Below, one piece after another: positions 36,488 to 41,034 of a stretch of DNA of 64,000 bases. The stretch lies in NCBI RefSeq assembly GCF_027497175.1, contig NZ_CP114901.1:4278001-4342000 (forward strand), written 5' to 3'. Numbering within the stretch: position 1 is the first letter of the stretch; every line of letters begins with the position of its first letter. Below the pieces are notes generated by a model that saw only the letters and a list, made by a program, of their open reading frames with translations, searched no databases and was not told the DNA's origin. Position numbers and translations under genes: made by a program. The DNA comes from Verrucosispora sp. WMMD573 (GTDB taxonomy: Bacteria > Actinomycetota > Actinomycetes > Mycobacteriales > Micromonosporaceae).

Positions 36488-37156
36488 TCAGGGGAGGGGA
36501 AGGGCCAGCAGGAGGAGGGTGGTGGTGAGGCCGGTGATGACGACGATGAGGACGGGGCGGGGGCTCAGCACGGCGTGGCGACGGTCGGCGATCAGACGCG
36601 CCGGGATCAGCCCCAGCACCGGGCCGAGCAGCGTCACCACCAGGGCCAGTACCGGCAGACCGACGGCCAGGTCACCGTCGTTGCGGGCAGCCAGGGCGCG
36701 GGCGACGGCGCCCAACACGTACGCCAGCACCCCACCGCCGACACCGCACAACGCCAACAGCGGATTGAGGTTGCCCGGTAGTTCGCCGGGCTGACGGGTC
36801 CGGCGCAGCAGATCGCGTACGCCCTCCAGCAACGCGACCGGATCGCCGGTCGCCTCCGGCGCGGGCATCGGCGGTGCACCGGCACGTCGTCCACCACCGC
36901 CCAGGCGGCTGTTCAGCTCCTGCCACAGCACCGCCACCTCGGCGTCCACCCGTTCCTGCGCCTCGCGCGCGGCGGCCAGCTCCCGCTCGGCCTGGTTCAC
37001 CTCGTCGGCGGACTCGGCCACCGCCCGGTCCGCCGCCGCGCACTGCTGGTCGTACCAGTCCCGTGCCTCCGCGCGCTGCTCGCGCACCCGGGCGGCCAGC
37101 TCGGCGAGCCGTCGCAGCTGGGCGGTGTAGGTCTGGCTGGTGACCGGTTCGTTCAT
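36488..37156 (-). CDS. Coiled-coil and multi-helix membrane protein of the EccC-like operon
   Basis: A 222-residue protein with an N-terminal coiled-coil (~12-90, LRRLAELAARVREQRAEARDW and EVNQAERELAAAREAQERVDAEV) and C-terminal hydrophobic helices (about 130-155, 162-185 and 200-220). It is the last gene of the operon and its ATG overlaps the stop of the ATPase gene (ATGA). The build suits a membrane platform that captures a soluble ATPase through its coiled-coil. I recognise no named family. Confidence 0.7.
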   Translation of the reverse strand: MNEPVTSQTYTAQLRRLAELAARVREQRAEARDWYDQQCAAADRAVAESADEVNQAERELAAAREAQERVDAEVAVLWQELNSRLGGGGRRAGAPPMPAPEATGDPVALLEGVRDLLRRTRQPGELPGNLNPLLALCGVGGGVLAYVLGAVARALAARNDGDLAVGLPVLALVVTLLGPVLGLIPARLIADRRHAVLSPRPVLIVVITGLTTTLLLLALPLP

Positions 37157-39822
37157 CGTGCCGGCCCGTAGGGAATGATGGTCTGCCCGGTCCGGTGCAC
37201 CGCCCGGTCGAAGAAGAGCCCGCGCCACGGTCGGGGGTACCAGTCCGGCCCACCACTGCCCGGGTACAACGACGGGCCCAGCTCCCCGCCGTGGGTGTCC
37301 AGCGCCACCCAGGCGCCGATCTGATCGGTGCGGGCACCGGTGCCACCCAGGTCGGCGCGCATCCGGGCCACCCCACGCCACCAGGCCAGCACGTGGGTGC
37401 GCCGCTCGGGGCCGTCGTGCAGGATCCGGCGCAGGCTCTCCAGCCCGGTGGCCCGGCCGGTACGCGCGGCGAGCGTCCCGGCCGCCGCGTCGACGGCGAA
37501 CAGCAGCAGATAGTGGGGTGCTCCGGTGGCGCCGGGCGCACCCAGGGCGTCGGCCGTCTCGGCCATCAGCTCGGCCACGGTCTCCTCGTCGTACCAGGCG
37601 GCGTCGTCGGCGAGATCCTCGTACAGGGCACGGGCCGCCGGGTCGGCATCCGGATCCAGGCAGGCGATCGAGAAGCGGGCGCTGCCGGGGCGGTGCTGCC
37701 GGGCCAGCGAGCGGGCCGCCGAGTCCAGCACCGCGCACGCCTCGTCGACCCGGGTGCCCAGCACGGCCAGATTGCGGCCCGGTGCCCGGGGCAGGCGCAG
37801 CACCGCCGAGCGGGCCTGCACGTCGATGATCTCGCCGAGGATTGCGAGCGGCCCTCGGGGCGTGCCGACCTCCGGCGCCCGCAGCGCCCGGAAGTCCGGT
37901 GCGTCGGCCAGCCGGGGGACGGCGTCGCCGTCGAAGAGACGGGCGGGCGCAGCCTCCGCCGGACGCATCCGCCACAGCCGGTGCTGCAGGTCGCTCCACG
38001 TCTCCCAGTCGCTGGCCGACGGGATCCGGGCCACCTGGTTGCCCTCGGACAGGCCCGACTCGGCGTTGACCACGGCGTGGAACTTCGGCAACGACTGGGC
38101 GGCGTCGTTGCGTTCGGCGAGGATGCGCAGCGCCTTCGGCAACGCGATCCGCAGGGTGAACTGGGCCACCAGCGCGGGCCGGCCCCACAGCGCCTCGATG
38201 CCGCGTACGTCCTGTGAGGCCAGCACCAGGTGGATGCCCTGGGAGCGGCCCCGGCGGGCCAGGTCCTCCAGCAGGTCGGCCGCCTCCCGGGCGACCGCGT
38301 CCCGGCCGGCCAGCAGCATCTGGAACTCGTCGACCACCGCGACGATGCGCGGCCAGTGCCCGGTCGGATCCACCGCGCGCAGCTCGGCCAGCTTCGTGAC
38401 CTCGTGTTTCTTGGCCGCGTCCGCCCGCCGGCGCAACTCCTCGGCCAGGAAGCGCAGCAGCGCCAGACCGAACTCCCGGTCGGTGTTGACGTTGATGCCG
38501 ACCAGCCGCATGTGCGGCAGCCAACTCGGATCCCGCCGGCCCTGGGCGAACCGGGCGAAGGACACCCCCTCCTTGAAGTCCAACAGGTAGAACTCCAGCT
38601 CGGCGGGGGAATAGCGGGCCGCGAGGGCGCCGATCCAGGCGAAGATCAGGTTTGTCTTGCCGGTGCCCGAGGGCCCCCCGATCAACGCGTGCGGTGGATA
38701 GTCGCCGAGGGTGAGCAGCACCGGCCGGCCCTGCGGTCCCTCACCGATCGGCGCGGTCAACCCGGTCGCCGAGTCCTCCCGCCACATCTGGTCGGCCGGC
38801 GGCAGCAGGTCGGTGAACGGGGTGGGCGCGGGGCCGGCACTGACCACGGAGGCGATGTCCCGGCAGGTCTCGGTGACCAGGGCAGCCGGCGGGGGCGGGT
38901 CGAGCCGGACCGGCAGGCTACCGATCCGCGCATCGTCGGCGGTCACCGTCACCCGGGTGACCGCCGCCTGGTCGGGCACCGGCACACCCCGCACGATCAG
39001 GTGGACGCCGCAGGCCACGCCGGCACGGACTACCCGGTCGAGCTGGCCGCGCTCGTGCCGGGACAGCTCGTCGCCGCCGAGCAGCACCGCGACCCGCCAC
39101 GGCTCCGGGCGGCGTCCCGTCGCGGCGGCCAGGTCGCGCAGCGACGCGTGCTCGCCGGCCAGGACGGTCTCGTTGATCCGGCGGATCTGTTCCACCAGGT
39201 CGTCAAGGAGCCGGCCCAGCCCACCCGGGCCGACGAAGGTGAGCAGCCCTGCCGGACCCAGCGGGGCGAATCCGGCCAGTCCGCCGCCGAGCCGGTCCGG
39301 GTCGTAGCCGACCAGCCGCACATTGCCCGGTGCCGCCCGGCCCAGGCTGCGCAGCAGCAGCGCGGCGACCACGGCGGAGCAGCCGTCGGCGTCCCCGTCC
39401 AGCGTCACGTGCCCGGCATCGAGCAGCGGGACCAGCGCTGGTACCGGCTCGGTGCCGGCCAGCCGGACGGTGCCGATCCGGGTCGCTCCCGGTGGTTCGG
39501 CCCGCTCTGCCGGGGTGGGACGCCAGCCCGGCCAGTCCGCCGAACCCGCGCCGGGCGCCTCCCGTGCCGCGGCCTCGGCCGCCTCCCGGGCCAGCACCGC
39601 CAACCGTGCCGCGTGCCGGGAGTCGATCTCGGCGAGGCGGCGGTCGCGTTCGGCGCCGACGCGCGCCGGCACGGCGGCGGCGGCCCGACGAACCCGCACC
39701 GCCCGATCGTGGGCGGCCGAGAGGGTGATCTGTGCCGTGGCCGACCGTTCCCGGGACGCGCCGAGCGCCTCGGCGAGCAGTTCCCGGACGCGGGTGACCA
39801 GCTGATTGCGCCGGTCAGCCAT
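37153..39822 (-). CDS. FtsK/SpoIIIE-type ATPase resembling EccC/EssC
   Basis: An 889-residue ATPase. A coiled-coil start (~1-110) is followed by a RecA-like region without a proper P-loop (~140-330), a canonical FtsK/SpoIIIE domain with Walker A GGPSGTGKTN (~380-390) and Walker B VAVVDEFQML (~494), and a third P-loop-like but degenerate region beginning GRNLAVLGTRVDEA (~690). Three tandem motors, one active, recall EccC/EssC of type VII secretion, where the extra ATPase domains are regulatory; there the active one is usually the first. No transmembrane helix is present. It overlaps both neighbours in the operon. Confidence 0.8.
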   Translation of the reverse strand: MADRRNQLVTRVRELLAEALGASRERSATAQITLSAAHDRAVRVRRAAAAVPARVGAERDRRLAEIDSRHAARLAVLAREAAEAAAREAPGAGSADWPGWRPTPAERAEPPGATRIGTVRLAGTEPVPALVPLLDAGHVTLDGDADGCSAVVAALLLRSLGRAAPGNVRLVGYDPDRLGGGLAGFAPLGPAGLLTFVGPGGLGRLLDDLVEQIRRINETVLAGEHASLRDLAAATGRRPEPWRVAVLLGGDELSRHERGQLDRVVRAGVACGVHLIVRGVPVPDQAAVTRVTVTADDARIGSLPVRLDPPPPAALVTETCRDIASVVSAGPAPTPFTDLLPPADQMWREDSATGLTAPIGEGPQGRPVLLTLGDYPPHALIGGPSGTGKTNLIFAWIGALAARYSPAELEFYLLDFKEGVSFARFAQGRRDPSWLPHMRLVGINVNTDREFGLALLRFLAEELRRRADAAKKHEVTKLAELRAVDPTGHWPRIVAVVDEFQMLLAGRDAVAREAADLLEDLARRGRSQGIHLVLASQDVRGIEALWGRPALVAQFTLRIALPKALRILAERNDAAQSLPKFHAVVNAESGLSEGNQVARIPSASDWETWSDLQHRLWRMRPAEAAPARLFDGDAVPRLADAPDFRALRAPEVGTPRGPLAILGEIIDVQARSAVLRLPRAPGRNLAVLGTRVDEACAVLDSAARSLARQHRPGSARFSIACLDPDADPAARALYEDLADDAAWYDEETVAELMAETADALGAPGATGAPHYLLLFAVDAAAGTLAARTGRATGLESLRRILHDGPERRTHVLAWWRGVARMRADLGGTGARTDQIGAWVALDTHGGELGPSLYPGSGGPDWYPRPWRGLFFDRAVHRTGQTIIPYGPAR

Positions 39823-40765
39823 CGATCCCGCGCCTCGGCCGGGCGACGAGCCCGTCGTGGGAGGTGATCCGACCACCGGCCGCCCCGCCGTTGGTGGGCC
39901 GGTCGCCGTCGGCGGGCTCGGGCGGCAGGTCGCGGCCGAGACGGTCGAGCAGGACGCCGGTGAGCACCCCGGCGGTGACCGCCGGGTCGGCGGCGTGCGG
40001 CTGCTCGCCCTCGCCCTCGCCCCGGCGCGGCGGAGGCATCCGGCAGACCCGGCTGAGCAGGGTGTCCAGCACCGGGGCGGGCAGGCCGGGGAGCAGGTCG
40101 CGGACCCGGCCGTCCAGTTCGCGGTGCAGCCGGGCGAGGTCGTCGCCGCGCGGTGGATGACCGAGCAGCTCGCTGGCGAGGTCGCGCAGCAGCGGCGGGG
40201 CCACGGCGGCCAGCCCCAGACCGACATCGGCGTGCGCGCCACGCAGGTCGCGGTGCAGCCGGTCGCGATCACCGGCCCGGACGCCGCGCACCACCCGGTG
40301 CAGCAGCTCCCGGGAGTCGGCGATGCGTTCGTCAGGTGGCTCCGCCGGACCCTCCCGCCCGCCGGTCAGCTCGGCCACCCGCACCGACCACCAGCGACGC
40401 AGCCGCACCTCGCCGGCCGGCTCGGGCGCGGCGAGCACCGGTTCGGCCGCACCGGGCGTGTCGTGCGCCGGCCGCCGCTCGGGCTGCCCGGGGGCCGGCG
40501 GCGCGCCGTCGGGGGCCAGCCCGATCGCGGCGAGGTACGCGGTCAGCTGCTCCTGGGCCAGCCGCAACGCGTAGCCGGCGGTCTCCGCGTGCTCGGTGGC
40601 GGTGGACAGCTCCGGTACCCCCATCGGGTTGGCCGACTCCTGACGCACCCAGCGCAGCCGCTCACTGGCCAGGCCGAACTTCTCCAGCGCCTGCCCGAGC
40701 AGACCCAGCGGCAACTCCTCGGCGGCGGCGCGGACCTGCGCGCCGACCTCCTCGACGATGGACAC
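39815..40765 (-). CDS. Helical protein of unknown function in the EccC-like operon
   Basis: A 316-residue soluble protein. The N-terminal ~85 residues are helical (EEVGAQVRAAAEELPLGLLG, then ALEKFGLASERLRWVRQ and ETAGYALRLAQEQLTAYLAAIGL) and resemble the helical-hairpin domains of type VII substrates. The rest is Pro/Arg-rich with helices such as SRELLHRVVRGVRAGDRDRLHRDLRG, and ends in a disordered Gly/Arg tail. GTG at 40765 follows a GGGGCGGG stretch, and the stop overlaps the ATPase start by eight bases. No enzyme motif is visible; a substrate or adaptor role is inference. Confidence 0.6.
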   Translation of the reverse strand: MSIVEEVGAQVRAAAEELPLGLLGQALEKFGLASERLRWVRQESANPMGVPELSTATEHAETAGYALRLAQEQLTAYLAAIGLAPDGAPPAPGQPERRPAHDTPGAAEPVLAAPEPAGEVRLRRWWSVRVAELTGGREGPAEPPDERIADSRELLHRVVRGVRAGDRDRLHRDLRGAHADVGLGLAAVAPPLLRDLASELLGHPPRGDDLARLHRELDGRVRDLLPGLPAPVLDTLLSRVCRMPPPRRGEGEGEQPHAADPAVTAGVLTGVLLDRLGRDLPPEPADGDRPTNGGAAGGRITSHDGLVARPRRGIDG

Positions 40766-40773
40766 GCCCGCCC

Positions 40774-41034
40774 CTACAGCGTCGAGACGTACTGCTGGGC
40801 CTGCTCGACCGCGACGAGTGTCGCGGCGAGGCACTCCTCCAGCTCCTGGCTGGCCTGGGTCAGCGACGCCTGCGCCGCCTCCACCGTGGTGTGACCGCTG
40901 CCCTCCAGCGCTCCGGCGAGGGTCTGCTGCGCCTCGGCCAGTTTCTCGCCGGCGGCCTGCACGGCGCTCTGACCGTCACCGATCTGCTGAAGTGCGACAT
41001 CGATGGCTGCCTTGAGCTCGGCGACGCTCGCCAC
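40774..41034 (-). CDS. Small two-helix WXG100-like protein
   Basis: An 86-residue Ala/Gln-rich protein predicted as a helical hairpin: helix one ~3-42, a GSG turn at 45-47 (LEGSGHTT), helix two ~50-84. Size and shape match WXG100/ESAT-6 proteins, but the Trp of the WXG turn is missing and there is no C-terminal YxxxD/E. GTG at 41034 has AGGAGG upstream. It is the first gene of the four-gene operon and so the likely secreted or partner protein for the FtsK/EccC-like ATPase. Confidence 0.65.
   Translation of the reverse strand: MASVAELKAAIDVALQQIGDGQSAVQAAGEKLAEAQQTLAGALEGSGHTTVEAAQASLTQASQELEECLAATLVAVEQAQQYVSTL

Follow-up and report, generated by a model that had tools for sequence, protein, structure and literature searches.

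What might an EccC-like ATPase do at a locus where the genes beside it encode small helical hairpins and a coiled-coil protein, and where EccB and EccD are missing? The question is raised by four minus-strand genes at positions 36488..41034 of a 64,000-nucleotide stretch of the Verrucosispora sp. WMMD573 genome (NCBI RefSeq assembly GCF_027497175.1, contig NZ_CP114901.1, positions 4,278,001 to 4,342,000), which we call the window. Their products are 86, 316, 889 and 222 amino acids (aa) long, and an earlier interpretation made from the DNA letters alone (the sequence-only reading) had seen in them a reduced type VII-like module for secretion or defence. On the whole we lean to the view that the products of the four genes form an EccC-derived protein motor, tethered to the membrane, that acts on hairpin proteins; its likeliest effect would be to move protein to the membrane, into it or across it. 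Secretion is plausible, but export by the module is a candidate function only, and somewhat less likely than not.

A codon-usage caller trained on the window's long open reading frames (ORFs) picked the same four genes, and their coordinates agree with the sizes and overlaps first described: the 86-aa gene lies 8 nucleotides (nt) from the 316-aa gene, which shares 8 nt with the ATPase gene, and the ATPase and 222-aa genes have an overlap of 4 nt. All features given below lie on the minus strand. A scan for promoters and terminators found none (chance expectation 0.0 and 0.6).

An EccC-like ATPase without membrane helices

The best PDB match of the family profile of the 889-aa ATPase (37153..39822) is EccC of T. 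curvata (4nh0), with an E value of 3.5e-56 versus 2e-24 for FtsK and 5e-4 for HerA, and the match to EccC is collinear over pre-D1 and D1; its proposed EccC/EssC-like nature is thus borne out by sequence. In the AlphaFold model a single long helix (residues 2-88) is followed by an EccC-DUF-like domain that lacks a Walker A motif (residues 114-329, 38836..39483), a central ATPase domain (residues 341-625, 37948..38802) and a degenerate RecA-like domain resembling EccC ATPase3 (residues 629-889, 37156..37938). Only the central domain has intact Walker A (GGPSGTGKTN, residues 382-391, 38650..38679) and Walker B (VVDEF, residues 496-500, 38323..38337) motifs, as alignment and model agree. The single canonical P-loop and the two degenerate RecA-like regions of the sequence-only reading are therefore present, the latter according to both the model and structure comparison. 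Neither the window ATPase nor any of 37 family members has a GK[ST] in the stretch aligned for the N-terminal or the C-terminal domain, and the central Walker A is kept in 35 of the 37, both exceptions belonging to one lineage of dead paralogues.

Structural matches of the model include the EccC5 DUF domain, EccC ATPase3, the tandem ATPases of EccC and EssC over 489-491 residues and T. curvata EccC over 720 residues, a whole-model ranking that rests on one structure search. The model has three NTPase-like domains, not the four of EccC and EssC (DUF, D1, D2, D3). Hydropathy found no hydrophobic segment in the ATPase, and by sequence and model its N-terminal coiled coil stands where transmembrane (TM) helices would be. 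Against curated models it scores 89 bits for EccCa (cut-off 509) and 60.5 for EssC (cut-off 778), below the threshold in each case. Taken together, the profile comparisons and the predicted structure show an EccC/EssC relative that has no membrane helices and is reduced to a DUF-like domain, an active ATPase domain and a degenerate ATPase3-like one.

The rank of the motor domain's kin differs by method. When the central domain alone is compared by structure, FtsK motors come highest (Z 29.6), followed by TcpA, a conjugation protein (26.5), and HerA (18.8), and the Pfam match of the protein is FtsK_SpoIIIE; these are the results one might cite for an FtsK/HerA-type DNA pump that serves chromosome handling or conjugation. 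By sequence, however, EccC comes first by far. EccC is also where the additional DUF-like and ATPase3-like domains have their counterparts, and the motor is accompanied by hairpins and a coiled-coil protein; we consider a DNA pump improbable.

The hairpin proteins and their coiled-coil partner

For the 86-aa protein (40774..41034, GTG start), AlphaFold2 predicts helices at residues 4-43 and 49-85 with a mean predicted local distance difference test score (pLDDT) of 90.7, the two-helix hairpin that had been expected. Since its dN/dS lies between 0 and 0.116 in pairwise comparisons with ten Micromonospora copies (chosen from 26 relatives in which the gene was found), the gene is no chance ORF. 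The turn of the model, residues 44-48 (40891..40905), reads Glu-Gly-Ser-Gly-His at the site of WXG in WXG100 proteins, and G45 is nearly invariant in alignments A3 and A6. Y82 and L86, nearly invariant in alignment A3, bound a C-terminal [YF]xxx[LI] motif (residues 82-86, 40777..40791). By pattern, 45 of 51 hairpins have [YF]xxx[LIVM] at the C-terminus or one residue before the end, and 45 of 51 a Gly-Ser/Thr turn, counts that are not independent because close orthologues of the window's protein make up about half of the 51.

The sequence-only reading called this protein WXG100-like, a term of which the hairpin fold and the co-conservation with the ATPase stand, whereas strict WXG100 membership is not supported. 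No WXG (or W-x-D/N) was found in the turn, where EGSGH takes its place, and W-x-[GDN] occurs in only 2 of the 51 hairpins examined (loci L103 and L106). The protein scores 16.8 bits against Pfam PF06013 (cut-off 27.3) and 17.2 against NCBIfam TIGR03930 (cut-off 44.85). The C-terminal WXG100 pattern HxxxD/ExxhxxxH (PMC3935865) is absent from the last 20 residues of all 51 hairpins, the window's included. ESAT-6 is the best of 177,635 PDB sequences for the hairpin family profile (E 3e-4), hhalign of that profile against seven WXG100 proteins gives a P of 0.0076 and a probability of 5%, and in six control loci the profile matches solely the two real WXG100 genes (E 0.028-0.029), with no match to the DUF6244 gene of control locus L139. 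These comparisons are only suggestive of a distant kinship to ESAT-6. Relatives supply what looks like a bridge between the hairpin family and WXG100: the ATPase neighbours in Pseudomonas (L130) and Lachnospiraceae (L131) are WXG100 proteins above the Pfam cut-off, the Pseudomonas one matching HP0062 at E 6e-7 and EsxA at 0.011, and the partner in L152 is annotated as a 'WXG100 family type VII secretion target'.

A hairpin profile match lies near the ATPase in 41 of 52 loci at a limit of 0.05, or in 39 once the unconvincing matches of L105 (0.011) and L107 (domain E 2.3) are removed, and many of these 39 belong to training alignments A5 and A6 and so match by construction. The misses include five loci of one paralogue (L043, L049, L050, L125 and L129), the first with a DUF6244-type hairpin and L049, L125 and L129 with hairpin-like ORFs by eye; the others are a dead-ATPase paralogue (L044, L051-L053), L101, which has two hairpins by eye, and L104.

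A result new to this analysis, and one that the sequence-only reading had missed, is that the 316-aa protein (39815..40765, GTG start) appears to begin with a hairpin of its own (residues 1-82, 40520..40765). Pseudonocardiaceae and Actinopolyspora have two hairpin genes (86 and 81-84 aa) ahead of the ATPase, and in Micromonospora, Allorhizocola and Glycomyces the second protein is 256-370 aa long. By hhalign, the first 92 residues of these long second proteins match the short second hairpins with P 2.1e-5 and the first hairpins with P 1.9e-5, and short second hairpins match first hairpins with P 1.1e-8; seven comparisons with coiled-coil controls gave P 0.013-0.29 (0.21 and 0.29 for the profile of long second proteins). 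Because its N-terminus is by this measure paralogous to the other hairpins, we read the 316-aa protein as a hairpin plus a C-terminal extension, and the locus would therefore encode a hairpin pair. The first-hairpin profile itself matches the second gene in L117 (7e-7), L128 (9e-4) and L123 (2e-3), matches the long second genes of L121 and L122 weakly (0.023 and 0.038), and has no match at 0.05 to the window's own 316-aa gene. Tandem Esx or PE/PPE pairs share the layout of a hairpin with a hairpin plus extension. Two more hairpin clusters with a hairpin-plus-extension gene lie in the same genome at 4.556 Mb (L150:6066-7689) and 6.310 Mb (L149:7680-8860), the extension genes carrying a hydrophobic stretch by eye; no ATPase of the module's family is beside either in the stretch read, and an EccB gene lies about 4 kb from the cluster in L150.

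The 222-aa protein (36488..37156) is a coiled coil with three strongly hydrophobic C-terminal segments (36500..36760, peaks at residues 133, 163 and 201), which by hydropathy agrees with the coiled-coil membrane protein first proposed. Models, alignments and sequence features together show a predicted hairpin in the 86-aa protein, a paralogous one in the 316-aa protein, and a coiled coil with membrane-like segments in the 222-aa protein. By the same hydropathy measure, clear membrane-like segments (at least one) occur in 11 of 23 coiled-coil partners, with three each in the window, L104, L108, L120, L122 and L126, and with such segments also in Glycomyces; one partner is borderline (L103) and one is cut (L121). 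The remaining 10 of the 23 have none (L106, L130, L131 and all seven of the sister clade, L045, L116-L118, L123, L124 and L128, which are soluble versions), and the membrane tether is therefore not universal. This counts against a fixed role at a membrane pore.

It also bears on a different explanation, in which a cytoplasmic protein-remodelling machine, an EccC-derived ring together with Hsp70-type chaperones, acts on hairpin-tagged clients and the membrane anchor is a late, lineage-specific addition. Soluble partners in 10 of 23 rows, a whole sister clade among them, fit such a machine, as do the chaperone genes of relatives. Hsp70 and J-like genes lie directly upstream of the hairpin and ATPase in L046, L047 and L048 (by eye), and L101 has an Hsp70 gene (Pfam 1.2e-109) and, by eye, a J-like gene near its ATPase; the 456-aa J-like protein of L046 matches only TPR and other helical-repeat families. 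On a Rhodococcus pseudokoreensis plasmid (L151), genes for Hsp70 (annotated), a J-TPR protein (DnaJ 1.3e-8), GrpE (1.4e-15), the ATPase, the coiled coil and an 86-aa hairpin stand in a row. In H. pylori a DnaK homologue accompanies WxG100 and FtsK genes (PMC4978471). Close to the window module, the opposite strand carries a ClpB-type gene, which by eye is present in both relatives inspected as well, and the WXG100 secretion pattern is missing from all 51 hairpins. However, none of the chaperone genes of the relatives, Hsp70 included, was seen at the window locus, which has only the ClpB-type gene nearby. Membrane-like segments occur in the partners of the window and of Glycomyces, and in 11 of the 23 rows overall, and the closest characterised relatives, EccC and EssC, are secretion motors. 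We regard remodelling as rather unlikely.

Two further observations concern these chaperone genes. Adjoining the run on the Rhodococcus plasmid (L151:10412-11683) are genes for a 272-aa protein with a hairpin-like start (by eye) and a second domain that has no Pfam match, and for a 134-aa protein, which are candidates for cargo and partner. The J-domain gene near paralogue L043 is a real DnaJ, yet L049 and L050 of the same paralogue show none by eye, and we did not retain it as part of the module.

Chromosomal setting and family tree

The closest named ATPase, 98% identical, is from a Micromonospora, and 35 of 37 genomes of the genus, the window's own included, have a full or near-full orthologue. 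The two exceptions (G010 and G014), with weak or partial matches only, come from assemblies broken up into about 800 or more contigs. Among 30 ATPase loci, again counting the window's, 27 have the 86-aa partner (truncated at the end of the locus in one of them), 29 the 316-aa partner and all 30 the 222-aa partner (one cut), and wherever a partner was missed the locus or contig stops before the gene. The 86-aa protein varies least across these loci (about 91-100% identity, compared with 82-96% for the ATPase, 68-92% for the 316-aa and 62-91% for the 222-aa protein). Extra RecA-like folds, a hairpin and co-conservation are thus what is found, not the plain FtsK fold, or the small protein that is no hairpin or is not co-conserved, which were to speak against a type VII-like module. 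The ATPase and 222-aa genes of G032 are parted by an insertion (L033:4727-5401), a gene that by eye encodes an IS200/IS605-type OrfB, owing to which just the first 39 residues of the 222-aa protein fall inside the locus.

The flanks are also shared: the window, L054 and L055 have genes for a ClpB-type ATPase and a 129-aa protein on one side and, on the other, a JmjC/cupin gene. For L055 and for L054, which has two extra genes, these were identified by eye. The five window neighbours that were scanned encode a JmjC_2/cupin protein (Pfam), the 129-aa protein (no match), the ClpB-type protein (1007 bits, cut-off 1232), a BshB1-like deacetylase, also under its NCBIfam cut-off, and a 116-aa protein without NCBIfam match. 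No phage record matches the ATPase at E 1e-10, and two plasmid records do so at E 1e-20, with 30-34% identity. Because of its presence in 35 of 37 genomes, its shared flanks and this scarcity on mobile elements, the module is a settled chromosomal locus in the genus, an inherited chromosomal part of a soil actinobacterium and core in Micromonospora.

For this reason the defence function that had been suggested is not supported, and we see only a slim chance that the module serves in anti-phage or other conflict. Some relatives do point that way: L130 and L152 are clustered with genes for vWA, PP2C, kinase and CARF-nuclease proteins, an arrangement described as CoCoNuT extensions (PMC11090510), and FtsK ATPase domains, some of them predicted inactive, are among the effectors of MoxR-vWA conflict systems (PMC7159879, PMC8195603). 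L130 has a vWA gene in front and PP2C and kinase genes behind, with a second vWA by eye, and in L131 the vWA, PP2C and kinase genes were recognised by eye only. In G002, genes for an 835-aa CHAT-domain protein (7e-21) and a 171-aa Trypco2 protein (1.5e-18), domains known from conflict systems, lie just downstream, between the 222-aa and cupin genes (L054:9304-12367). The ATPase also matches the PADLOC mad8 and SspH models, although over the motor domain only, and membership of either was rejected on that ground. The wide occurrence in Micromonospora, the constant flanks of the three loci compared, the phage and plasmid results and the absence of conflict genes among the five neighbours scanned all stand against such a role.

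A model of the family core gave held-out homologues in Pseudomonas (L130), Lachnospiraceae (L131) and Chloroflexota (L119) 270, 239 and 175 + 63 bits (the last in two pieces), and the window genome's own two EccC proteins 103-106, its EssC-like protein 144, FtsK 72 and a TraB-like protein 32 bits. In a midpoint-rooted tree of the core domain, with several long branches flagged and with the miscalled L127 ATPase and the TraB-like protein left out, the window groups with another Micromonospora, Allorhizocola and Glycomyces (97/91), next to Pseudonocardiaceae, Actinopolyspora and allied actinobacteria (100/99). A 96/96 branch parts the whole family from EccC, EssC-like and FtsK proteins, and the inner backbone is partly open. 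L132 and L133 were dropped as family loci, being distant FtsK proteins. At E <= 1e-60 the ATPase has a match in 46 of 296 genomes and in 11 of 114 genera of the class.

Two paralogues of the ATPase are found in the same genome, at 1.02 and 5.98 Mb, and the 1.02-Mb copy has lost Walker A and B. Both motifs are destroyed in L044:8746-11304 and L052:9554-12091, a conserved dead motor in Micromonospora that adjoins ftsH, folE and hpt-like genes and a row of genes for large membrane and secreted proteins, conjugation-like by eye. The second paralogue has genes for dynamin-like/HSR1 GTPases directly upstream of its ATPase in Actinoplanes xinjiangensis (L129:131-5403). Farther afield, a 1210-aa family ATPase of Aggregatilineales (Chloroflexota) has two small W-containing hairpins behind it, and one of them contains W-K-G (L119:9287-9863). 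In L104, L105 and L107 (family f34) the ATPase and coiled-coil partner are kept, 201-aa and 122-142-aa helical proteins replace the 87-aa hairpin, and thioredoxin genes adjoin (by eye). The window genome also has a 1461-aa EssC-like ATPase at 4.05 Mb (L136:5081-9466; 418 bits, cut-off 778), apart from its two ESX loci.

Published systems and a proposed mechanism

The class of architecture to which the module belongs is already in print, a point that the sequence-only reading lacked. Among the 'solo WXG' systems of other phyla are YueA-like ATPases of three HerA/FtsK domains with the middle one alone active (Zhang et al. 2012, PMC3482391), and PMC11090510 cites Anantharaman 2012 as the source for such stand-alone operons. 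The window module shares with them the three-domain ATPase with only its central domain active and a small hairpin partner. It differs in being actinobacterial, chromosomal, vertically kept and non-mobile (35 of 37 genomes of the genus), in having a pair of hairpins with a Gly-Ser turn in place of WxG, one of the two continuing into an extension, and in a partner with three membrane-like segments. Type III-A CoCoNuT extensions combine an EssC-like ATPase with WXG100, for which the authors infer secretion by a different mechanism (PMC11090510). They are similar in an EssC-like ATPase with the central domain alone active, an N-terminal coiled coil and no TM segment, and in two hairpins of which one lacks WxG; a difference is that none of the five scanned neighbours in the window is a vWA, PP2C, kinase, McrBC-like or nuclease gene.

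The 'WXG100 secretion system' of H. pylori (HP0062/HP0066), with a DnaK homologue in its WXG100/FtsK cluster (PMC4978471, PMC3397514), likewise has an 86-aa WXG100-like hairpin clustered with an FtsK/SpoIIIE gene, and it shares the clustered Hsp70 with L046-L048, L101 and L151; however, the HP0062 turn has WRD, and the window hairpin has no match to HP0062 in two PDB searches. GAP1-N2 systems, which also include HSP70, GrpE and DnaJ, were considered and set aside, no FtsK being named in the passage that describes them (Kaur et al. 2020, PMC7159879).

With the EccC of T7SSa and the EssC of T7SSb-T7SSj (types of type VII secretion system, T7SS) the module shares an EccC-family motor and a hairpin protein, whereas its ATPase has three domains and no TM segment, and EccB and EccD are missing from the locus, as first noted: in this genome EccD occurs only at 1.04 and 1.18 Mb and EccB only at 1.18 and 4.55 Mb, the window being at 4.278-4.342 Mb. 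EccE and mycosin, searched for in the five scanned neighbours and not genome-wide, have no match there; the two ESX loci do have mycosin matches. The ATPases of T7SSc-T7SSj are membrane-bound with four predicted NTPase domains (PMC11217815). Since the three-domain architecture matches the solo WXG and CoCoNuT systems, and T7SSc-T7SSj differ, we do not class the module as a T7SS or as a WXG100 member; it is a vertically inherited actinobacterial variant of the solo-WXG-type systems. Among the PMC titles listed, none concerns the module in Micromonospora or a Gly-Ser hairpin pair, the subscription literature lying mostly outside that scope.

How might a membrane-tethered motor of this kind work? 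The two hairpins would pair as a four-helix bundle, and the C-terminal Tyr-x3-Leu of the 86-aa hairpin may dock in the ATPase3-like domain, by analogy with EccC, whose ATPase3 reads the C-terminal LxxxMxF motif of EsxB (PMC6954902). Docking would license the single active ring, gating it or switching it on, and the ring would then draw both hairpins, along with the C-terminal part of the 316-aa protein, through its own pore or against it. The coiled-coil membrane protein would hold the ring at the membrane in place of EccC's own membrane helices, and in other lineages Hsp70, the J protein and GrpE probably hand over the client. All contacts, the hexamer, the direction and the cargo of the motor are inferred. 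A variant that we find doubtful, and somewhat more so than simple remodelling, is that the module represents a form of the type VII machine that is non-secretory or precedes secretion. It would be a ring motor linked to chaperones and equipped with a pair of Gly-Ser-turn hairpins, core in Micromonospora and retained by a sister clade where the coiled-coil partner lacks a membrane part; EccC motors and Esx hairpins would then have begun as cytoplasmic handlers of clients, tied to Hsp70, and have gained membrane pores later.

If the favoured reading of a tethered, EccC-derived motor is true, an EccC-type motor and an Esx-like hairpin pair would form a four-gene, housekeeping-like unit without a membrane complex. 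It would offer a small system in a non-pathogen for asking how an EccC ring acts on a hairpin pair, whether the ring is activated when a C-terminus docks in the ATPase3-like domain, and why Hsp70 accompanies such motors across distant phyla.

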